Assembly (NCBI RefSeq): GCF_016808335.1
Contig: NC_053153.1
Location: 31,503,590 to 31,567,589 of the forward strand
Reading direction: 5' to 3'
Source of the DNA: Panicum virgatum
Lineage: Eukaryota; Streptophyta; Magnoliopsida; Poales; Poaceae
DNA length: 64,000 nt
Shown: piece after piece, positions 1-59,641 of the stretch
Layout: each line of letters opens with the position of its first letter
Numbering within the stretch: the first letter of the stretch is position 1
Translations under genes and position numbers: made by a program
Notes under the pieces: generated by a model
What the model was told of the DNA's origin: nothing
Database searches by the model: none
What the model saw: the letters and a program-made list of their open reading frames with translations, nothing else

Positions 1-231
1 TTTCTAATTCAAACAAAGTTTGAATTCAAATTTGAATTTGAATTCAAAACACACTCAAATAAAAGTATGCACCAGCATGATTGCAACAAAAATTTAAACT
101 TATGATAAATTTTAATTAATTAGGAACAAAAATTAGATTAAATGCCAACTAAACACAATAAACCTTAGAAAATTTAAATAAAGCCAATTTAATTTATTAA
201 TAAATGCTGAAATTTAAATTAGGGTGTTACA
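1..231 (-). mobile_element. TEK-a: 5' tip of a Tekay-type LTR, reverse orientation
   Basis: The segment ends at 231 with GGGTGTTACA, the reverse complement of the TGTAACACCC start of the Tekay-type LTRs at 1707, 35058 and 55984. It contains the same AT-rich opening and the palindromic run of GAATTCAAATTTGAATT-like words. The rest of the element lies left of the window. It interrupts another Tekay LTR at 231/232: the sequence from 232 on matches the interior of sTEK-1 (minus strand, near 35965) without a break. The TSD cannot be checked because the other end is outside. Confidence 0.85.
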
Positions 232-1134
232 GGTAAGCTTCTATGTCCCTCGTACTGAGTGGCCTCGTCTGTGCTTCGTGTCTTGATGCCCACTAGACCT
301 GCTCCATAGTCGCCGATCCACCCTCGCGGTTACTCCCTACCAACGAGATTCTTTGTAAAGGCCTCGTAGTGAGTCGCTAGTCATCTCACCTAAGGAAGTG
401 TGATGAACAACTGGCGTAGCTCACGACTTGTGGGTAAAGATGTGCAACCTCTGCAGAGTGTAAAACTGGTATACTAGCCGTGCTCACGGTTATGAGCGGC
501 CCAGATCATCCTTTTGATTAGTGGGGTTATCTCCTTCCGACGAGGGAGTTGCCTCTCGGGGTTACCTTGGTGGCTTGGTTTCGGTTTGGTTCTCAGTAGT
601 AACATGTTTAATTCTGATTAATTACTATGTAACTGGGTTAATGGTAATTCATCAACTCGTAGTAAATAGCTTTAATAAAATTTTGCCAACACTTAAAAGC
701 TAATGCAGTCAGTCAGCCAACCTTAGAGCCTCATAGTTTGTGTTATACTTGTTGAGTACAAGTTGTGTACTCACTCTTGCCTCTTCTCTACTTTTTCCTC
801 TTGGCTACGCTACTGCTGCTCAGTTCCTGCAGACACGAGGGAGTTCGTTCAGCGCTACCAGGACTACGAGGACTTCTAGGTGTTCGTCTCCCAGTCGACG
901 TCCCTGTGGCGCCCTGCTCAGCTTCGGAGAGCTTTTACCGTATTTGTACTTCGCTTTCGCTGTACCAGACATTTTGTCATTAATGTAATAAATAACATTC
1001 GTATTTCGATTTATTATGTCTTATTCATGATATGTGCTGTGATATACTGTTCATTCTGTTGTATATACGTGTGACTTGATCCTGGCACGTATATGATTGC
1101 TCGGTTTATGTTCTTTTATAAACCGGGTGTTACA
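232..1134 (+). mobile_element. TEK-b: 3' part of a Tekay-type LTR inserted in TEK-c integrase
   Basis: The sequence is collinear with the last 900 bp of the LTRs at 1707-5092 and 55984-59416 and ends in GGGTGTTACA at 1134. It is followed directly by integrase codons rather than by a primer-binding site, so this is the 3' end of an LTR (solo or 3' LTR) inserted into the coding region of TEK-c. It contains the terminal 56-nt exon-like block of the LTR-embedded reading frame at 824-879, with acceptor CTGCTCAG before it and stop TAG at 877-879. Confidence 0.85.
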
Positions 1135-1670
1135 ATGATGCAGAGCAGATGGTTCAGGCTGTGCGAGAAAATCTGAGGATTGCACAGAGCAGACAAAAGA
1201 GCTATGCAGATGGCAAACGGAGAGACCTGACCTTCAGTGTTGGTGATTATGTGTACCTGAAGGTGTCTCCGATGAGAGGTATCCGCAGATTCAATGTCAA
1301 AGGGAAGTTAGCACCTCGATATGTGGGGCCATTCAAGGTGCTAGAGCGGAAAGGCGAAGTTGCTTATCGCCTGGAGTTGCCTACCAGCCTCTCAGGAGTT
1401 CATGATGTCTTCCATATATCTCAGCTGAAGAGGTGTCTGCGAGTACCCGAGGAGCAGGCGCCACTGGATGGAGTAGATGTGCAGGAAGATCTGACTTATA
1501 CCGAGCATCCGGTAAAGATTCTGGAGACATCAGAGAGGGTTACTCGAAACAAGCGCATCAAGATGTACAGAGTTCAGTGGAGTCACCACAGTGAAGCTGA
1601 GGCTACATGGGAGCGAGAAGATGAGCTGATGAAGACATATCCAGATCTCTTTGCTAGCCAGCCCAGCTAA
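1135..1670 (+). pseudogene. TEK-c integrase C-terminus with chromodomain (5'-truncated by insertion)
   Basis: This is the 3' end of a Ty3/gypsy chromovirus polyprotein. The frame is open from the insertion junction to the stop after AGCCCAGC at 1668-1670. The integrase C-terminal GPF/Y-like module is visible (YVGPFKVLERKGEVAYRL, about residues 57-74 counted from the Met at 1149), then VHDVFHISQLKRCL. A chromodomain follows near the C-terminus (HPVKILETSE, then YRVQWSHHSEAEATWE), with the aromatic residues typical of the family. In chromoviruses this domain is thought to steer integration to heterochromatin. The upstream gag-pol is not in the window because TEK-b interrupts it. No frameshift is seen in the visible part. 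Confidence 0.92.
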
Positions 1671-1706: not shown

Positions 1707-4700
1707 TGTAACACCCTAATTTAATTTTTCCGCATTTAGTAATAAATTTAATTGGCTTTATTTAATTTTTTTTCTTCTAAGGTTTATTGTGTTTAGCCTT
1801 GCATTTAATTTAATATTGTTTCACAAGTAATTAAAATTTGTCTAGGTTTAAAAATTTGTTGTGCATTCATGCTAGTGCATACTTTTAATTGAGTGTGGTT
1901 TGAATTCAAATTTGTATTTGAATTCAAACTTGTTTGAATTAGGAATAGAAAAGAATAGGAAATAGAAAGGGAATAGGAAATAGAGACAAAACCCTCAACC
2001 CAACCCGCTAGCACCAACCCCCTCGCGGCCCACTACTCCCTTCCCTTGGGCCCGCTCCTCAGCCCAGCACATGGCCCAAACCCCTCCTCTGTGCCAGGCC
2101 CAGCTTTCACGGCCCAAGCGACGCCAGCCCCTCGGCCCGCTCCGCATAGCCCACGCCGCGGCCTGCCTCCACCCGCTCACCTCGCGCCCACAGAGCGCGT
2201 CGCCCCCGCTGCCACCTGGACCCCACCTGGCAGATCCGTCCCCCTCCCGAGTCGCTTGCCCGTGCAACGGAAACCGGCCGTGATCCCCGGAGAGATCCTC
2301 GCCCGCGTGCTCAACGGCACGGACGCCCAGACCCCGCCCGCCTGCTTTATATCGCACCCCGCGGCCTCTGCACCTCATCCCCATCGCAGCCGCCGCCCCA
2401 AACCCTAACTCTGATTGCCCCGCCGTGCCGCCGTGCCTCTGCTCCGCTGCGAGCACACCTCCCCGCTGCACCACGGCCCCCACAAACCCCCGCCTTAGCC
2501 CCACATCGATGCCCCGAAGCTCGCCGAGCCCTTGCTCGCGACTCCCAGGCCCTGCAGCACAGGAATTTCTCCTGTGTAGCGCCGCCGGTGAGCTCGACCG
2601 CCGCTGCAATCCCATGCCGCTGTTGCCGCTCCGTGCCTGCTAACCCCCTTTTCGCCCTCGCAGGATCTTCATGAACCGATCCGAGGACACCAGGACGCCG
2701 GAGCACACCTCGACGTCCACTTCCGCGAAGCACCGAGTCGACCTCGCCGCCGTTTCACACCGTCAACCCCCTGCGCTGCGAACCCGACCGTCCCGCGCCC
2801 TCGGTGAGCCACATCCCGGTCCGCCCTATCTTTACGCGCTAAATTTTGGTAGCCGTAGCCCCCGGGAGTCATCGAACCGCCTGCTCCGGCGAGGTCTCGC
2901 CGTCCAGAGCCGCCATGGCCAATGAACTCCGCGCTCCGGACCTCCCCAGACCCAACCCGCACCTCAGGTGGACTACACGTGCCACGAGAATCCTCCACGG
3001 CCAAACCCCAGCCCAAGCAAAGCCCTGTAGCCCCCAGGACGCTTTCTCCGGTCGTGCGCCGCCGCGGGAGCGCGCCGCCGCCCGCGCGCCCTTTAACCCT
3101 GAGCCGTCAGATCTAAAATAAACGCGCGAGATTAGAACCCACCTCGATCGGATCTGGACCGCTAGATCTCGATCCAGCGGCCTGAATCCCCCCGTACCGG
3201 TTCGGCCTGTCTTTTTTCTAAAGAGACCCCCGGTTTTGTTAAAATCAACCCGCAGTCCGATCTTATTCAAAAATAATTACGCAGAGGTCCTGTTTTTAGC
3301 GTTTTAGCCCCTGGAGTTCTTTAAAATCAAACCCGCCGTCCAGCCCTTGTCTTTTTGCACGCTAGCCCTTGTATCTAAGGTTTAATTACGTTTTAGTCCT
3401 CGGTTTTTGCCCAGAAACCCACTGGAACTTAGTTTTTATCGCAAATAAGCCCCTGAACCTTGTTTTTAGCCTAGATTATGCGTTTTAGCTCCGTTTTAGG
3501 CGTTCTTTATATCCACGCGATCGTTGTAACGCGTAGAATAGTTTTAAACTAGTTTAGTGTGTTGTTTTTATGTATTGATGTACTGTTTCTTAGTTTTTGG
3601 TTATTGTTTGCTTGTATGCTTATTGTTGTGCCTCGTTTTGGCCATGTGTTCGTGAGTAGACGTTGAGCTACCGGAGGAGCCCCAGTACCAGTACCCGGAG
3701 CAGCCGTCTTCTGAGCACTTTAAGCAGTAGCAGGAGCAGTACGAGGAAGGCAAGTATAACATGAACAACCTATCATCTTTAAATACAATTTCATACTGTA
3801 TTTTAATACTGTATGCCTATAAGGATTTCCTAGCCACTTTATATCCTTTATATATATCCTTTGGGTTGCATTTTGGTTAGTTGTGCTAGGTGTTGCGCTA
3901 TAACACATAATGGTCCTTTTTAATTAATTTGATTAATGGTATATGCAACTTAATTCTGAGAGTGGCACTCTGTGTGGCTTGAGTGGCTCACTTCTCGTTA
4001 AAATTGGTTTTGTTAGAAACATGGTTTAGGGGGACAGGACGGTGCTTACTGCTGGGTTGGCCACTCTCCATAAGGACCAGTTCATAGAGCGACAACCTGG
4101 GACAACAGCTCTACCACAAGACTGGAATGGGACGGTCTTAGCTTACTAATTAGGTCATTTTGGTTCGGGAGTAACTTACCTGCGGGGCAAGAAGGGAGTC
4201 GAGCTTCAATGGTCCCTACGCTACGAGGCTGGTCTGTGTTGTCTTGTACCCCGTCGAGGTGGGCCCCATCGTTGCATTGACTGAATCCTTAGCGGTTACA
4301 CCTTACCAACGTGTCCTTTGTAATGGCCTCGTAGTGAGTTTGCTAGTCATCTCACCTAAGGAAGTGTGATGAACAACTGGCGTAGCTCACGACTTCTGGG
4401 TAAAGATGTGCAACCTCTGCAGAGTATAAAACTGGTATACTAGCCGTGCTCACGGTCATGAGCGGCCCAGATCCTCCTTTTGATTAGTGGGGTTATCTTC
4501 CTTTGACGAGGCAGGTTTCCCCGGGTGGTTTGGTTTGGTATGGTTCTCAGTAGTATCATGATTAAATTTGATTAATTACTATGTAACTGGGTTAATGGAA
4601 ATTCATCAACTCGTAGTAAATAGCTTTAATAAAATTTTGCCAACACTTAAAAGCTAATGCAGTTGAGTAAGCCAACCTTAGAGCCTCATAGTTTGTGTTA

Positions 4701-5092
4701 TACTTGTTGAGTACAAGTTGTGTACTCACTCTTGCCTCTTCTCTACTTTTTCCTCTTGGATACGTTACTGCTGCTCAGTTCCTGCCGATGCGAGGGAGTT
4801 CGCTCAGCGCTACAAGGACTACGAGGACTTCTAGGCGTTCGTCTCCCTGTCGACGTCCCTGTGGGGCCCTGCTTCCGAGAGCTTCTCGTATATGTTTTTT
4901 TTGTACTTCGTTTCCGCTGTATCAGACATTTTCGTAATTAATGTAATAAATAACATTCGTACTCGCTTTATTATATCTTTTTACGTGATATGTGCTATGA
5001 TATACTGTTCATTCTATTGTATATACGTGTGACTTGATCCTGGCACGTATATGATTGCTCGGTTTATGTCCTTTTATAAACCGGGTGTTACA
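1707..5092 (+). mobile_element. TEK-c 3' LTR (Tekay/Del type, about 3.4 kb)
   Basis: The LTR starts TGTAACACCC at 1707 and ends GGGTGTTACA at 5092, a perfect 10-bp inverted terminus. It has an AT-rich first part, a GC-rich block at about 1980-3130, and then AT-rich sequence again. It carries exon-like blocks of the LTR-embedded frame (separate entry). A TATA-like TTTATATC lies at 2346-2353. The insertion host is TAT-1, whose 3' end resumes at 5093. The long simple-composition frames on both strands in the GC-rich block are mostly a product of low stop-codon density. Confidence 0.9.
2664..4834 (+). pseudogene. LTR-embedded spliced frame, copy in TEK-c (one in-frame stop)
   Basis: Three exon-like blocks share boundaries and phase with the copies in sTEK-1 and sTEK-2. 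Block 2 is 2664-2803 (140 nt, acceptor CCTCGCAG, donor CTCG/GTGAGC). Block 3 is 3660-3749 (90 nt, acceptor GTGAGTAG, donor GGAAG/GCAAGT, a GC-type donor). Block 4 is 4779-4834 (56 nt, acceptor GCTGCTCAG, stop TAG at 4832). Block 3 encodes EEPQYQYPEQPSS and has an in-frame TAG at its 24th codon. Block 4 encodes PADAREFAQRYKDYEDF. A preceding block ends at 2587 before a 76-nt GT-AG intron. In this copy the expected frame of that block has a TAG just upstream, so the methionine at 2671 could be the effective start. Function is unknown. Confidence 0.5.
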
Positions 5093-33729: not shown

Positions 33730-35057
33730 TGTTGACGGCCATTATTTCACATTTTGTCCGTCAACTTCTCGAAAATAAATCGAGTTTTTGCACCATGTTC
33801 CATGCATACTTTATTTAATCACAATAAGTTCCACAAGTTTTGGATGAGTTGTGCTTGCAGGAATTCAATGTCCAAAGATGGTCGAAATCAGAGAAAATCC
33901 CGGCCGCCCGGCACATTCCGTGCCAACCGGCCTGACACCTCCACATACATGGGTCCAATATTCTTACTGGAGCAATGTGACATGTTCATAAGGTTCCAGA
34001 ACAAGGCGAACATCTCATATCCTGTCGATGGACCCAGAAGGCACAAGGTTCAAACCAAAGACCCACATGCCAGTGCCAAGAACGTCAAATGGGGAAACCA
34101 CCCAGTCCAGAGGCAATATGGAGTGTTGATGTGCAATGTCGGCGAAACGGAGGGCTGAGGGGCTCTGGAGGCAGGCCGCCCGGTCCACTCCGGGTCGCCC
34201 GGCCTAGGATTCGAGCATCCGAGGAAACTACCCGACTTACCGACCTCCCAGAGTGATCAGGAGCCGTCCACGCGAAGTCGGTGGACAAGTGGCAGCAGGG
34301 CCTAGGCCAGGCCGCTCGGCCCCAGAAGTCAGCCACTGGAGCTCCCCTTTCGCGTGAAGTTCAAGGCAAGTCAGGGGTAGCGTGATCTTGCAGCGGATAC
34401 CTGATTACCGACATTAAGCACCTATAAATAGCACTCTTCCCCTCACTTGTAAATACACACCCAAAGGAGCAATTCTCTCTTCTCAAGTCTAGAGTAGGTT
34501 AGTAGTTGGGAGTTAGAGTCGAGTCGAGCTTGTCTCGGGGATCCGGAGTCGTCATCGGAGCTCGGTATAAACTCTTGTATCTTTTCCTTTGACTATTTTA
34601 ATATAAGTAATCTTATTTATTTACTTGAGTCGGCTTTACTTTTTGCAAGTTATTTATCTTCCCAAATACTAGTACTTGTCTGCGGGAGTAAGTTTTACCT
34701 CTAGTTCAGTTTAAGTTCTCTTTCTTGCCTTGTCGGAGTTAGTCTTACGGGTTTTCTCGCCTGTACTAGTGTAACTCAAGTTAGTTCACTAGGTTGAGGG
34801 GGATTTCTCTTGAAGTCCTCAAGAGAAATCCTAGTACCGAGAGCAGATGTGGTGTCTGACTCAGTGCTAGCTAGGAAGTGTGTTCCTCCCCACAGCACTG
34901 CAGTGGTAGGCGGCAAGTGGTGACAGCCTTCTCCGTCCCTCGTAGTCCACCATGTTGAAGTGCTTTCATAGCAGTAGTTGCCGAAGGAACGTTGGGCTCC
35001 CTTCTCATCCTTGTCTGAGCCCTTCTCTTAGGCCGCCGAAGTAAGCTCCTGGTTCCG

Positions 35058-38000
35058 TGTAACACCCGATTTATAAAAGAACATAAACCGAGCAATCATA
35101 TACGTGCCAAGATCAAGTCACACGTATATACAACAGAATGAACAGTATATCATAGCACATATCACGTAAACAGATATAATAAAGCGTATACGAATGTTAT
35201 TTATTACATTAATGACAAAATGTCTGATACAGCGGAAGCGAAGTACAAAATACAATAAAACCTCTCCGAAGCTGAGCAGGGCGCCACAGGGACGTCGACT
35301 GGGAGACGAACGCCTAGAAGTCCTCGTAGTCCTGGTAGCGCTAAGTGAACTCCCTCGTGTCGGCAGGAACTGAGCAGCAGTAGCGTATCCAAGAGGAAAA
35401 AGTAGAGAAGAGGCAAGAGTGAGTACACAACTTGTACTCAACAAGTATAACACAAACTATGAGGCTCTAAGGTTGGCTGACTCAACTGCATTAGCTTGTA
35501 AGTCTTGACAAAATTTTATTAAAGCTATTTTCTACAAGTTGATGAATTACCATAAACCCAGTTACATAGTAATTAATCAAAATTAATCATGTTGCTACTA
35601 AGAACCAAACCACAACCACCAAGGTAACCCCGAGAGGCACCCCCTCGTCGGAAAGAGTTAACCCCACTAATAAAAAGGAGGATCTGGGCCGCTCATGACC
35701 GTGAGCACGGCTAGTATACCAGTTTTACACTCTGCAAAGGTTGCACATCTTTACCCACAAGTCGTGAGCTACGCTAGTTGTTCATCACACTTCCTTAGGT
35801 GAGATGACTAGCAAACTCACTACGAGGCCTTTACAAAGAATCTCGTTGGTAAGGAGTAACCGAGAGGGTGGATCGGCGACTATGGAGCAGGTCTAGTGGG
35901 CGTCAAGACACAGGTACGCAGACCAAGCACAGACGAGGCCACTCAGTATGAGGGCCATAGAAGCTTACCGCCCTTGCCCCGCATGTAAGTTACTCCAAAC
36001 CAAAAAGACCTAATTATTACGCCAAGACCGTCCCATTCCAGCCTTGTGGTAGCGCTGTTGTCCTAGGTTGCCGCACTATGAACCGGTCCTTATGGAGAGT
36101 AGCCAACCCAGCAGTAAGCACCGTGCTGGCCCCCTAAACCATGTTTCTAACAAAAACCAATTTTAACGAGACGTGAGCCACTCAAGCCAACACAGAGGGC
36201 CACTCTCAGAATTAAGCTGCATAAACCATTAATCAAATTAATTAAAAAGGACCATTATGTGTTAAAGCGCGGCACCTAGCACAACTAACCAAAATGCAAC
36301 CCAAGGGATATATATAAAGGATATAAAGTGGCTAGGAAATCCTTATAGGCATACAGTATTAAAATGCAGTATGATAATGTATTTAAAAGTGATAGGTTGT
36401 TCATGTTATACTTGCCTTCCTCATACTGCTCCTGCTACTGCTCAAACTGATCAGAAGACGGCTGCTCCGGGTACTGGTACTGGGGCTCCTCCGGTAGCTC
36501 AACGTCTACTCACGAACTCATGGCCAAAAACAATGCACAACAATAAACATACATGCAAACACTAGCAAAAACTAAGAAACAGTACAACAATACATGAAAA
36601 CAGCGCATAAAACTACTCTAGAACTATTCTACGCGTTACAACGATCACGTGGACATAAAGAACGCCTAAAACGGAGCTAAAACGCATATTCTAGGCTAAA
36701 AACAAGGTTCAGGGACTAAACTGCAAGAAAACTAAGGTTCCAGGGGGTTTTCTGCAAAAACCGAGGGCCTAAACATAATTAAACCTTAGTTCTAGGGTCT
36801 AACGCACAAAAACTACCAGGCTGGACTACGGGTTGTAATAGGAAAAAGCTCAGGGGGCTGTGTGTTAAAAAGAGGGTCAAACTGGAATTATTTTTGAATA
36901 ACGGTGGACTGCGGGTTGATTTCGGGGAACCCCGGGGTCTCTTTTGCAAAACATGCAGGCGCTGACCGGTACTTCTCTGTTTGACTTCGGCCTGAGCTGC
37001 TGTACGCCATCGGATCTTGATCCAACGCCTACGATCAAAGGGACGCGAGAAGGGGGTGGTGCTGCTCGCCGGAGCAGAAGCTCCCGCGGCGGCGCCTCAC
37101 CGGAGTAGGCCGATCTGGCGTTCCCGGGCTCGTTTTGGGCTGCGGTTTGGTGCAGAAGAACGAGTGCGGCATGTGTAACCCACTGGGGGGTTAAGTCAGG
37201 TTCGGGGAGGACTTGGGACGTAGCCGCGACGGTGGGGGCGGTGCTGGGCCATGGTGCTCGCCGGGGTGGGGCGTATCGGCCGAACTGGGGTGGAAGAATG
37301 GGCGTCAAAAGGATGCGCGTGCGCGTGTTTAGAGAGCGCGAACCCAAACTAGGGTTGCGTGGGAATGTGTCGTGCTGCGGGATCTCCGCCATGGAGGATC
37401 CGTGGCGTGCGCAACGGCGGAGCACCGGCGCATGCTGCGACGGTAGCTAGGGTGGCCTACGGGCTAGGCTAGTTAACGCAGAAGGGAGCAAAGGTTGGTG
37501 CGTGGCTCACCGAGGCGCGAATCGAACGGAGAAGCAGCGTAGAGGGGACCGGCGACGAGGCCCGGGCGGCGGCGCTCGGACGGGATTGGAGACGGGTCGA
37601 AGCAAGGGGCCTCCGGACGTCTGGGCGGCGCGGATCGATGCGGGGTGTGCCTGCGAGGACGAAAGGTGGGTCAGGGCGGGCCAATGGTCACCGGCGGCGA
37701 GTAATTCCGGTGAATCCAGAATTTACCGGAGTTGGGGCTCGAGCGTGATTCCGAGGAAGCTCGGGTCGATTCTTCGATCAGGTGGCTCGGAGAGCTTCTG
37801 GACGTCGAGGCGGGGCGGTTGCGGCAGTTTGCAAGACCTGGGAGGCGGTGGCGTGGCCGGTCTGCGGCGGCGCAGGGAGGTTTGCGCGGCGGAGCGGGGT
37901 GGTGGCGGTATGCTAGGGTTAGGAGCGGCGGCTGTGATGGAGGTGAGGTGCAGGGGGTGCGGCTGCGGGCTAAAAAGAGGGGATGCCGAGGATCTCGGCG

Positions 38001-38785
38001 TGCGGGCCTGGGGGAGGGGATCCCCGGCCATTTCGCCGGCGATCTCGGGTGCGGGAGTTGCGCGGAGCAGAAAAGGAAGGAGGAAGAAGGGCGCTGACAT
38101 GTGGGTCTGGGGTGGCAGTCGCAGAGCGGGCAACGGCGTGCGAGCAACGCGGGCACAGTGCCGGCCACTGACGCATGGGCCTAGTTGAGCGGGGAGAGAG
38201 CGAGTGCGGAGGGTCGGGCTGGCTCACGGGCCGGCCTTGTCAGCGAGTGTGGGCGAGGGCGCTGCGGGGTCGGGCGAGCGTGCGACGGTGTCACGGGCTA
38301 GAAAAGAGGAGGGGCGCACGGAGAGGGGGAAGCCGCGGCGCTTGGGCCAAGCTGGGTCGGTGCGGCTGGGAAAAGGAGAAAGGTGAGCGGGCCGGGCTGC
38401 TGGGCCGCGGGAAAAAGAAAAAGGGAAGCTGGGCTGGGCCGATGCGGAAACAAAAGAGGTAAGGGCTGGGCTGTTTTCTGGGTTGGGCTGGATTGCTAAA
38501 GGGTTTGGGTTTCCTTTCTCTATTCTAATTCAAACCAAACTCAAACTAATTCTCTTCGAATTCAAATTTGAATTTGAATTCAAAACCCTAGCACTCAAAC
38601 AAAGTGAAAACCATGCACCAGCATGAATGCACGAATAAGTTGAACCTAAGATAAAATTTTAATTATTTAAGGAACAAAAAAAAATCGGATCAAATGCAAG
38701 ACTAGCACAAAAAAAATCCTTAGAAATTTGAATAAAGCCAATTAAATTTATTATTAAATACTGAAATTTGAATTAGGGTGTTACA
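35058..38785 (-). mobile_element. sTEK-1: solo Tekay LTR, TSD TTCCG
   Basis: Read on the minus strand it runs from TGTAACACCC at 38785 to CGGGTGTTACA at 35058 (3728 bp), with TTCCG at 35053-35057 and 38786-38790. There is no internal sequence. A GC-rich block lies at about 37060-38460. It carries a copy of the LTR-embedded frame. Confidence 0.92.
35314..37650 (-). pseudogene. LTR-embedded spliced frame, copy in sTEK-1 (two in-frame stops)
   Basis: The minus-strand blocks have the same boundaries and lengths as in TEK-c. Block 2 is 37650-37511 (140 nt, acceptor GTCCTCGCAG, donor CTCG/GTGAGC). Block 3 is 36505-36416 (90 nt, donor GGAAG/GCAAGT). Block 4 is 35369-35314 (56 nt, acceptor GCTGCTCAG). 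Block 2 is open in the expected phase although its amino-acid sequence has drifted. Block 3 has a TAG at the same codon as TEK-c. Block 4 has CAG changed to TAG and otherwise reads REFT, stop, RYQDYEDF. Confidence 0.5.
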
Positions 38786-39159
38786 TTCCGGCATCAAGAT
38801 AGAAGCTTAGATTAGTTCTAATGAGGCTAGCTCAGTAGTTTAGAAGTGTTTCAGGAGTCCTTTCTCGCTCGTTGTCCTCCCAGCTGCTACCTCTCTAAGG
38901 TATAGAACCTCCTGTGTCTCAAGCGGTCATAGACTGGCCATTTATCCTATCCATTATCTATCTTACCCCTGCTGAATTAGTCGGTTGATAAACTCAGTAA
39001 AGGTTGCCACTACAATTTACGATACACTTTACCATAGTGCTTCCTTGAGGATTTCACGATACCCCGGAATACTCCGAGGTGAAGTGCTACACCGGTGAAT
39101 TCTGTGCGCTTGCAGAATACCTATTCAGATTGAGCATAAGAGACACCAACAAGCATTTC

Positions 39160-55057: not shown

Positions 55058-55983
55058 GTCGGTGGACAAGGGGCAGCAGGGCCTAGGCCAGGCCGCCCGG
55101 CCCCAGAAGTCAGCCACTGGAGCTCCCCTTTCACGTGAAGTTCAAGCCAAGTTAGGGGTAGCGTGATCTTGCAGCGGATACCTGATTACTGATCTTGAGC
55201 ACCTATAAATAGCACTTCCCCCTGACTTGTAAACACACACTCAAAGGAGAAATTCTGTCTTCTCAAGTCTAGAGTAGGTTAGTAGTTGGGAGGTAGAATC
55301 GAGTCGAGCTTGTCTCGGGGATCCGGAGTCGTCATCGGAGCTCGATATAAGCTCTTGCATCTTTTCCTTTGACTATTTTAATATAAGTAATCTTCTTTAT
55401 TTACTTGAGTCGGCTTTACTTTCCGCAAGTTATTTATCTTTCCAAGTACTAGTACTTGTCTACGGGAGTAAGTTTTACCTCTAGTTCAATTTAAGTTCTC
55501 TTTCTTGCCTTGTCGGAGTTAGTCTTACGGGTTTTCTCACCTGTACTAGTGTAACTCAAGTTAGTTCACTAGGTTGAGGGGGATTTCTCTTGAAGGCCTC
55601 AAGAGAAATCCTAGTACCGAGAGCAGACATGGTGTCTGACTCAGTGCTAGCTAGGAAGTGTGTTCCACCCCACGGCACCACAGTGGTAGGCGGCAAGTGG
55701 TGACAACCTTGTCCGTCCCTCGTAGTCCACCACGTTCGGGTGCTTTCATAGCAGTAGTTGCCGAAGGAATGTTGGGCTCCCTTCTCATCCCTGTCTGAGC
55801 CCATCTCTTAGGCCGCCTAAGTAAGCTCCTGGTTCCGGCATCAAGATAGAAGCTTAGATTAGTTCTAGTGAGGCTAGCTCAGTAGTTCAAAAGTGTTTCA
55901 AGAGTTCTTTCTCGCTCGTTGTCCTCCCAGCTGCTACCTCTCTAAGGTAAAGAACCTCTTGTGTATCAAGCGGTCATAGACTG

Positions 55984-58900
55984 TGTAACACCCTAATTTA
56001 AATTTCCTATTTAGTAATAAATTTATTTGGCTTTATTTAATTTTCTAGGATTTAATTTGTTTAGCTTGCATTTAATCTAATTTTTGTTCCATAAGTAATT
56101 AAAATTTACCATAGGTTTAAAATGTTTGTGCATTCATGCTGGTGCATTGTTCTTTTTGTTTGAGTGCTAGGGTCGAATTCAAATTTGAATTTGAATTCAA
56201 ATAGTTTGTGTGGTGTTTGAAATAGGAAGTAGAAAAGAGGAAAATCAGAGGAATAGGAAAAACCAAACCAACCCAACCCAGCTCGGCCGGCCCAGCACCC
56301 CGGCCCACCTTTTCTTTTCCCCGGTCCGCTTCTTTCCTTCCCTGGCGGCCCAGACCGCGCGCCCGCAGCCCAGCACTGCCCACCCCGCGCACACGGTCCG
56401 CTTCTGTGCCGGCCCAGCTCATCCTCACCCGCGCTCCCGCTCAGCCCGCAGTGCACGCCCACGCTCGCACGCCCTCTGGCTGACAAACCGGGCCTAGGCG
56501 GCAGCGCCATCCCCCGCACCACACGCTCACCGTTAGAGCCTTCCCTCACTGACGCCGGGACCCCACCAGTCGGCCCCTTCTCCCTCCTCCCGCGATCCTC
56601 GCCCGCACAACAGAATCCGGCCAGATTTCTCGCCGGCCTTCCTTCCGGGGCACGCCCACCCAAGATGCCCGGGCCTCCTTAAAGTGGCTCCTGCGGCCCT
56701 CTACGCCCACCATCTCATCCCGCAGCGCCGCAGCAAACCCCAGCCGCCGCCTCCGCGTTGCCCCGTGTGCCGCCGCTCTGCGCCACCGTGACCAAGCCGC
56801 TCCGATGCACCGGAGCCCTGGCCAAGCAGCGCTCCGGCTCCGCCTCGGGCCTAGGAATGACCCTGAGCCCTCCTTCCCCGGCCTAGACTCCTGCATCACC
56901 GGAATTTGGATCGGACTTCGCCGCGGGTGAGTTTCGCCGCTGTCGAAATCCCTCACCGCCGTTGATGCTCCGGCCGCCCTAGCCCCCTTGACACCTTCGC
57001 AGCACGTCAACGCACCTTCCCGTGGAGATCCGAAACCCGGAGGACGACCCTAGCCCCCGGACCACGCGAGCAGCTCCGAGCGCCGCCGCGGGACCACACC
57101 GTCAACGACCCGATGCCGCTGCACTGCCTTCCTGCTCGCTCCTGAGCCTCGGTGAGCACCAGCGTCCCTTCCCTGCTCCTTTGTGCTAATATTCATAGCT
57201 GGTAGTACCCTCTGGGTGCCGGCGCACCGCTCGCCGGTGCTCCGCCACCGCGCAGTCCCGCCCCTCGCCGTGGCGAGCCCCGTCCAAGCCGGTCGTGCCC
57301 CGCTTTTGCCTCCAGTGGCTTACTCATGCCGCGTAGATGCTTCTCGACCCAAGCCCCACTCGAATCCGCCCCGGGAAGACCAAGTTCGGTCTTCTCCGAC
57401 GCAACGCCGCCGCGGAACCCCTGTTCCGGCGGTCCGCGCCGCCACCCGCGCACCTAGAAGCCGTCGGCCGTTCGATCTGAGACCAGCGCCCAGGATTAGA
57501 TCGTGCGTACCTCTTCGCCCAGAGCCGACGGATCGCAATCCAACGGCTCAGATCTAACCATACCGCTTCAGCCAGGATCATTTGCTAAAGAGACCCTGGG
57601 TTTTCCTTGAATTAACCCGCCATCCCAGCCTGTTCAAAAGTAATTACAAACCGGTCCTGTTTAATTCACTTAGACCCCTGAGCTCTTTAGAATTTGAACC
57701 CGCCGTCCAGACTTGACATTTTTGTGTGTTAGACCTTAGATCTACCCGGTAATTACATTTAGGCCCTTGGTTTTTGCAGAAAACCCCGAGAAACTCTGTT
57801 TATCTTACAGTTAAACCCCTGGACCTTGTTTTAGCTCTAGTTTTCACGTTCTAGCTCCGTTTTAGACGTTCTTTATGTCCACACGATCGTTGTAACGCGT
57901 AGAATAGTTCTAGCATAGTTTTGTTTGCTGTTTTCATGTATTGTTGTACTATTTCTTAGTTTTTGCTATTGTTTGCATGTATGTTTATGTTGTGTATTGT
58001 TTTTGGCCATGTGTTCGTGAGTAGACGTTGATCCATCTGAGGAGCCCCAGTACCAGTACCCGGAGCAGCCATCTTTGGATCAGTTTGAGCAGCAGCACGA
58101 GCAGTTTGAGGAAGGCAAGAATAACATGAACAACACCTATCACTTTAAATACATTTTACATACTGCATTTTAATATTGTATGCCTATAAGGACTTTCCTA
58201 GCCCCTTTATATCCTTTATATATATATATCCCTTGGGTTGCATTTTGGTTAGTTGTGCTAGGTGCCGCGCTACAACATACTCGGTCCTTTTTAATTAATT
58301 TGATTAATGGTATATGCAACTTAATTCTGGGAGTGGCCCGTTTGAGTGGCTCACGTCTCGTTTAAAATTGGTTTTTTCTAGAAACTTGGTTTAGGGGGCT
58401 CGCACTGCGTTATGTGCTAGCTACTCTCCATAAGGACCGTACGTCATTAGAGTGACAACCTGGGACAACCGCGCAACCACAAGACTGGAATGGGACGGTC
58501 TTGGCTTACTAATTAGGTCATTTTGGTTTGGGAGTAACTTACCGACTGGGCAGGAGGGGTGGTGAGCTTCAATGGTCCCTGCGCTACGAGGCTTGGTCTG
58601 CATACCCCTCGAGGTGGGCCCCATCGTTGCTGAGCCTGAATCCTTAGCGGTTACACCTTACCAACGTGTCCTTTGTAACAGCCTCGTAGTGAGTTTGCTA
58701 GTCATCTCACCTAAGGAAGTGTGATGAACAACTAGCGTAGCTCACGACTTGTGGGTAAAGATGTGCAACCTCTGCAGAGTGTAAAACTGGTATACTAGCC
58801 ATGCTCACGGTCATGAGCAGCCTGGATCCTCCTTTTGATTAGTGGGGTTACCTTGGTGGTTTCGGTTTGGTTCTCAGTGATTCATGGATAATTTTGATTA

Positions 58901-59416
58901 ATTACTATGAAACTGGGTTTATGGTAATTCATCAAACTGTAGTAATTAGCTCTCATAAAATTTTGCCAAGATTAAAAGCTAATGCAGTTGAGTCAGCCAA
59001 CCTTAGAGCATCATAGTTTGTGCTATACTTGTTGAGTACAAGTTGTGTACTCACTCTTGCCTACTCTACTCTTTTTTCTCTTGGGGATACTCTACTGCTG
59101 CTCAGTTCCTGCCGACGTGAGGGAGTTCACCCGGAGCTACCAGGAGTATGAGGACTTCTAGGCGTTCGTCTCCCAGTCGACGTCCCTGTGGCGCCCTGCT
59201 TCCGAGAGTTTCTCGTATATGTTTTTACGCTTCCACATACTCTGTATCAGACATTTTGTCATTAATGTAATAAATAACATTCGTATTCGCTTTATTATAT
59301 CTTTTTACGTAATATGTGCTGTGATATACTGTTCATTCTGTTGTATATACGTGTGACTTGATCCTGGCACGTATATGATTGCTCGGTTTATGTCCTTTTA
59401 TAAACCGAGTGTTACA
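55984..59416 (+). mobile_element. sTEK-2: solo Tekay LTR, TSD GACTG
   Basis: TGTAACACCC at 55984 to GAGTGTTACA at 59416 (3433 bp), flanked by GACTG at 55979-55983 and 59417-59421. There is no internal region. A GC-rich block lies at about 56270-57560. Confidence 0.92.
56805..59161 (+). CDS. LTR-embedded spliced gene in sTEK-2, uninterrupted 138-codon frame (putative)
   Basis: Blocks: 56805-56926 (122 nt from ATG, donor CGCGG/GTGAGT), 57003-57151 (149 nt, acceptor CTTCGCAG, donor CTCG/GTGAGC), 58025-58114 (90 nt, acceptor GTGAGTAG, donor GGAAG/GCAAG) and 59106-59161 (56 nt, acceptor GCTGCTCAG, stop TAG). The total is 417 nt, exactly 139 codons, with no internal stop. Introns are about 76, 873 and 991 nt; the last is GC-AG. 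The product would be Arg/Pro-rich at first, then acidic and Gln-rich (EEPQYQYPEQPSLDQFEQ), ending REFTRSYQEYEDF. No domain is recognised. The start could lie further upstream, since the GC-rich frame stays open. The alternative is that block conservation only reflects recent common descent of the LTRs. Confidence 0.5.
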
Positions 59417-59641
59417 GACTGGCCATTTATCCTATCCGTTATCTAGCTTACCCCTGCTGAATTAGTCGGTTGATAAACTCAGTAAAGGTTGCCACTACAA
59501 TTTATGATACATTTTACCATAGTGCTTCCCTGAGGATTTTACGATATCCCAGAATACTCTGAGGTAAAGTGCTACACCGGTGAATTCTTTGCACTTGCAG
59601 AATACCTATTTAGATTGAGCATAGGAGACACCAACAGTGAG

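Follow-up and report, generated by a model that had tools for sequence, protein, structure and literature searches.

An LTR of a Tekay-type chromovirus in Panicum virgatum looks like a conserved spliced unit with coding-like 3' exons

LTRs are usually regarded as promoters and terminators that encode no protein. A solo LTR in a stretch of 64,000 nucleotides of Panicum virgatum DNA, here called the window, raises the question of whether an LTR can carry a spliced gene of its own, because four of its blocks had been predicted to encode a complete protein of 138 residues. We compared this LTR with its relatives in the window and elsewhere in the same genome. Judged by sequence, it looks like a conserved spliced unit with coding-like 3' exons, and we found no description of such an LTR in the open-access library searched.

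The solo LTR and its relatives in the window

The LTR in question, sTEK-2, occupies positions 55984 to 59416 of the forward strand, begins with TGTAACACC and ends with GTGTTACA. It is flanked by GACTG at 55979-55983 and 59417-59421, and sTEK-1 (35058 to 38785, reverse strand) by CGGAA, 5-bp duplications as expected of solo LTRs. TEK-c (1707 to 5092, forward strand) lies just behind an integrase C-terminus with a chromodomain (1149 to 1670, forward strand), and thus reads as a 3' LTR; at window positions 1149-1667, Pfam gave Chromo at 27.2 bits (cut-off 25.1) and SH3_Tf2-1 at 90.9. The fourth relative, TEK-b (326 to 1134, forward strand), is the 3' part of an LTR. TEK-b is rearranged (window positions 1-1134): its 5' end is inverted beside the 3' part, ahead of the TEK-c integrase end. 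Positions 34277-39151 and 55058-59636 are two copies of one repeat, alike by 93-95% in pieces, and hold sTEK-1 and sTEK-2 at different points; these copies may be the LTR pair of a further, larger element.

A chromodomain at the integrase C-terminus, TG...CA LTR ends, 5-bp target duplications and a PBS adjoining the LTR are features of Tekay (Del) chromoviruses, and all of them were found. From these features the family reads as a Tekay-type chromovirus. The PBS-like sequence TGGTATCAGAG, which we take to be an initiator-Met PBS, followed the LTR in 12 tails, of which 11 are distinct.

Inspection of sTEK-2 confirmed that blocks of 122 nt (56805-56926), 149 nt (57003-57151), 90 nt (58025-58114) and 56 nt (59106-59161) join to 417 nt, which run from ATG to TAG as 138 codons plus stop without an internal stop. 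The blocks are separated by a GT-AG intron 1 (56927-57002), a GT-AG intron 2 (57152-58024) and an intron 3 with a GC donor (GC-AG, 58115-59105). When the sTEK-2 block sets were Markov-shuffled with their boundaries fixed, 3.0% were open throughout; given this figure and the free choice of start and sites, one open copy in three is weak evidence alone, and it is the comparison with copies from elsewhere in the genome, described below, that raises the splice sites and blocks 3-4 above chance. The same boundaries were recovered in the other copies as predicted, with aligned lengths for blocks 2, 3 and 4 of 140/90/56 in both TEK-c and sTEK-1, and 56 nt for block 4 of TEK-b, which is open. Read in the sTEK-2 frame, TEK-c is interrupted by two stops in block 1 and by a TAG in block 3, and sTEK-1 by one TAG each in blocks 3 and 4; both lack the ATG. 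Identity among the three window copies was 51-54% in blocks 1-2, with the neighbouring sequence no worse (intron 1, 58-68%), and 84-96% among window copies in blocks 3-4, similar to their flanks.

Searches with the 138-residue product returned DUF3391 alone from Pfam, at an E-value of 0.38 and under the cut-off. Rfam gave no match. No relatives were found at the sensitivity used in a viral contig collection, searched by protein and by two exact DNA patterns, or in a genome contig collection, searched by protein.

Splice sites, transcription signals and the leader

Further copies were drawn from the window's own genome, the sample being picked by similarity to sTEK-2. For exons 1-2, 39 matches other than the window's own were chosen from the 40 scored; with L042 left out, 38 fetched copies and sTEK-2 made up 39 rows. 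For exon 3, 40 of the 3,116 candidates seen at first look were scored, and the first 20 non-window ones were added, so that 43 rows became 63. The 40 rows of exon 4 later became 59, representing 58 copies since L040 and L041 overlap and one row is repeated. Window copies are included in these counts, and matches not spanning a block were dropped by coverage thresholds. Between copies, the 3' half of the LTR (57840-58200) is far more uniform than the 5' half (56700-57580), intron sequence included.

All six splice sites are conserved. Of 39 rows, 37 have GT at donor 1, 37 have AG at acceptor 1 and all have GT at donor 2; acceptor 2 reads GTAG in 62/63 rows, donor 3 is GC, as GCAAGT or GCAAGA, in 60/63, and acceptor 3 is AG in 59/59. 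In the 39 rows, exons 1-2 vary by 0.33-0.39 per site between these near-invariant dinucleotides. A regular expression located a TATA-like box in 27 of 40 rows, as CTTAAA at 56678-56683 in sTEK-2 and as TTTAAA, CTATAA and similar forms in other copies; some of the 13 rows without a match have near variants by eye. Behind the stop, the poly(A) signal AATAAATAA was found by pattern at 59269-59277 in sTEK-2; of 31 matches, 29 have it no more than 170 nt from the stop. With its splice sites kept between a TATA-like box and AATAAATAA, the LTR resembles a complete spliced transcription unit. From these signals we infer that transcription would start near 56710, pass through four exons, three introns and a stop, and end at about 59300. 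The R region would then span about 2.6 kb and contain introns.

We then considered whether exons 1-2 encode protein. The dN/dS ratio was 0.88 in block 1 (0.97 and 0.91 in the other frames) and 0.70 in block 2 (0.84 and 1.00). Over the 39 rows, block 1 varies from 100 to 125 nt and block 2 from 138 to 152 nt (140 nt in 18 rows, 141 in 8, 139 in 7, other lengths in one or two each), so that the 9-nt, frame-preserving difference claimed for block 2 is not a rule. No in-frame ATG that could serve as a start for blocks 3-4 is conserved in exons 1-2 of 40 rows. In the leader, 39 ATGs were seen against 70 expected and 129 of the reverse CAT, and 18 of 40 rows have no ATG; TGA too is scarcer, and TAG commoner, than expected, and composition therefore plays a part in this scarcity. 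Exon 2 as an N-terminal coding exon was ruled out, since it does not change length by multiples of three and single-base indels close to its end shift the frame. Exons 1-2 (block 1 being the 3' portion of exon 1) have the appearance of an untranslated leader, which would be fast-evolving and AUG-poor while keeping its splice sites.

These results bear on the original prediction in different ways. The anatomy of a spliced gene within the LTR holds, but a 138-residue protein from exons 1-4 starting at 56805 is strongly disfavoured and in our judgement highly improbable: the frame is open in sTEK-2, yet no more than two of 39 rows, one of them sTEK-2, have the ATG, blocks 1-2 have neither a frame nor a dN/dS signal, and the frame is broken in TEK-c and sTEK-1. 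The acidic character ascribed to the product belongs to blocks 3-4 (15 D/E and 2 K/R in 48 residues) and not to the first 90 residues (8 D/E, 11 K/R). Nor is every solo LTR a potential gene, as had been proposed, given the lack of a conserved start and the stops in block 3; at most, an intact solo LTR may be a potential spliced transcription unit.

The 3' exons and their possible upstream partners

Exon 3 (DVDPSEEPQYQYPEQ...QFEE) and exon 4 (VPADVREFTRSYQEYEDF followed by TAG) behaved differently from the leader. In 60 of 63 rows, exon 3 measures 90, 93, 87, 84, 75 or 72 nt; the other three have 89, 91 and 74 nt. Exon 4 keeps a length of 56 nt in all but one of 59 rows, whereas flanks of like size fall into 4-11 length classes, mostly not three apart. 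In-frame changes of 6 and 12 nt lie outside simple triplets. The NG86 dN/dS ratio of exon 3 (43 rows) was 0.29 in frame versus 0.75 and 1.26 in the two other frames, that of exon 4 (40 rows) was 0.50 versus 0.73 and 1.32, and flanks ranged from 0.42 to 1.44. At first and second positions of exon 3, diversity was 0.136 and 0.101, values that fall between those of the two flanks (about 0.16 and 0.08), which means that the low ratio comes partly from high third-position change. In 400 tree-based neutral simulations at flank rates, values as low as that of exon 3 arose in 2 for all branches and in 16 for internal branches; substitutions in exon 4 alone were not significant (26/400 and 286/400, respectively).

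In-frame stops occur in 26 of 63 exon-3 rows and internal stops in 5 of 59 exon-4 rows, while the terminal stop is at the same place in 58 of 59. Stop-making changes numbered 2 on internal and 37 on terminal branches, versus 81 and 294 for other deamination-type changes (P = 0.011); all remaining changes numbered 209 and 373. When the comparison was limited to deaminations in CHG context (13 internal, 76 terminal), the bias was not significant (P = 0.15). Exons 3-4 thus look coding, clearly for exon 3 and mainly through the absence of indels for exon 4, and the coding signal that had been anticipated for all four blocks relative to their flanks is confined to these two. With no conserved start codon, they most likely encode the C-terminal part of a protein whose start lies elsewhere; the acidic, Gln-rich segment of about 48 codons, ending YEDF-stop, may form its tail. 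The frame would be kept in transposing lineages and decay after insertion.

Directly before the gag start, [CT]AG is present in 8 of the 12 PBS-bearing tails (L015, L016, L018, L025, L028, L039, L042 and L046); of the remaining four, some are short or rearranged and others lack [CT]AG by pattern. We infer that in whole elements the LTR leader would be spliced to the start of gag, which in most copies lies right behind an acceptor-like CAG. An intron in gag was found in the autonomous relatives L028 and L049 (read through), in L028 with CAG/GTAATC at the donor and TTCACTTCAG/GG at the acceptor; the donor is also present in L025, L039, L042 and L046, and its GT is kept in 5/5 copies aligned. This donor is in the wrong phase for exon 3 as read from the sequence and was ruled out as its partner, and so was the C-terminus of pol, whose sole conserved donor-like site is also in the wrong phase. 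At the protease/RT border, a pattern search located a phase-compatible donor, CCA G/GTATGC, in three copies, L043, L048 and L049. Scored with site weights, it is the top phase-1 donor-like site of the internal region in the two copies compared, and in five non-autonomous copies (L013, L014, L027, L029 and L045) a deletion starts exactly there. As six donor-like sites were listed and three are in phase 1, the protease donor is a lead. The leading, though tentative, candidate for the upstream part would be a Gag-protease isoform, made by splicing from the interior of the element into the 3' LTR. The non-autonomous pairs L013/L015 and L009/L018 (C2 and C7) have about 2 kb inside and LTR pairs 95-96% identical, and the L013/L015 pair carries the deletion from the protease donor-like site.

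Another possible start lies at the border of exon 3 itself, where the genome reads ATG TGT TCG TGA (58009-58026). The TGA is present in 61 of 63 genome rows and the ATG in 50 of 63. Protein searches with exon 3 read through gave two and then 1,092 matches, and the spliced form gave 743; 120 proteins were listed per large search, and 189 were retrieved in all. These proteins come from short contigs, most from ENA. Their reading is MCSWVDVDPSEEP; of 188 aligned, 183 have W where the genome rows have TGA, and those looked at continue into intron 3. The exon 3-exon 4 junction was not found by pattern among the 189 retrieved proteins, among the 120 listed of 743 in a search built to rank the fusion first, or in the genome loci fetched. 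L021, which lacks exon 3, was ruled out as a spliced copy, its deletion running from intron 2 into intron 3.

We therefore weighed several explanations of the 3' exons. It is rather unlikely, though the strongest of the alternatives, that the LTR is spliced but non-coding, exons 1-4 forming a regulatory or leader transcript and the codon pattern of exons 3-4 reflecting triplet slippage and base composition. Exon 3 is rich in CAG/GAG triplets, whose slippage could explain part of its in-frame indels, and the lack of a conserved start, the tree-based result for exon 4 and the exon-3 stops agree with such a transcript. It accounts poorly for the dN/dS ratio of exon 3, matched in 2 of 400 neutral simulations, for stops nearly confined to terminal branches, for in-frame changes beyond simple triplets, and for an exon 4 with so constant a length and terminal stop. 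Less probable again is a relic, in which exons 3-4 were coding in ancestral elements, as a captured gene or their own, and are now decaying; the many stops in present copies, the TGA just upstream of exon 3 and the weak exon 4 signal would fit, but constraint on exon 3 is seen among present copies, on internal branches too.

We consider it similarly improbable that the LTR of other lineages encodes a self-contained small protein. Its translation would begin at an ATG (MCSWVD...) that precedes the acceptor by 15 nt; intron 2 would stay in the transcript and intron 3 alone would be spliced out. The tryptophan of the database proteins is far too frequent to be explained by single-step escapes from TGA. 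On the other side, the database set was selected for open frames, the genome rows carry TGA and most keep the ATG, and the acceptor GTAG is kept in them. The reading that we prefer, and hold to be probable, is that the LTR is a four-exon transcription unit in which exons 1-2 form an untranslated leader and exons 3-4 encode part of a protein starting elsewhere. Beyond this, we tentatively suggest a Ty3 element in which the 5' LTR leader is joined to gag, a Gag-protease transcript is spliced into the exons of the 3' LTR as an acidic tail, and unspliced RNA alone is replicated, so that the LTR would serve as promoter, leader, coding exons and terminator; this fuller scheme is more doubtful than the four-exon unit itself.

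Comparison with known elements

If the four-exon reading is right, a long R with introns could be replicated intact, which would demand strict separation of spliced and genomic RNA. Thousands of LTR copies (3,116 exon 3 candidates, 40 of them scored) could serve as ready-made spliced promoters, and the arrangement could help account for the great length of grass Tekay LTRs.

In MMTV sag and nef-type retroviral genes, coding sequence in the LTR is reached by splicing and forms a single open frame with its own start. The LTR studied here resembles them in having coding-like sequence inside the LTR, predicted to be reached by splicing, and differs from the sag type in having two exons without a conserved start; an open frame with a conserved start in the LTR was not found (ATG at 56805 in 2/39 rows, none conserved in 40). 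Conserved splice sites, a feature of spliced-Gag retrotransposons of the BARE1 and EVD type, are present.

BARE is a Ty1/copia element. According to the accessible parts of its report, BARE1 has two TATA boxes and makes a spliced, translated Gag RNA apart from the unspliced, replicating RNA, and spliced DNA copies were not found in the genome (PMC3735527). It is thus an LTR element with separate spliced and unspliced RNAs, as we predict here from sequence; its intron is at the end of gag, however, and the same parts mention no LTR introns or coding exons (PMC3735527). Splicing of Arabidopsis EVADE likewise yields a short Gag-only mRNA, shGAG, but EVADE is Ty1/copia and is described, in the portion consulted, as using an internal early poly(A) site instead of LTR exons (PMC8892269). 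In rice MIKKI, a solo LTR (BAJIE) participates in splicing, as the accessible sections relate, although MIKKI is one rearranged locus and its RNA a microRNA decoy (PMC5599236). Retrosat-2 is assigned to the Tekay/Del group in the classification of Neumann et al. 2019 as far as its consulted sections go (PMC6317226). The available text on rice Retrosat2, RIRE3 and RIRE8 describes LTRs longer than 3.2 kb and ORF0, an extra grass-specific ORF of unknown function (PMC3485330). Retrosat-2 shares with the present family the Tekay/Del group, and these elements share its long LTR, whereas ORF0 is placed by that text upstream of gag-pol rather than in the LTR, and the main text does not use the word 'intron' (PMC3485330).
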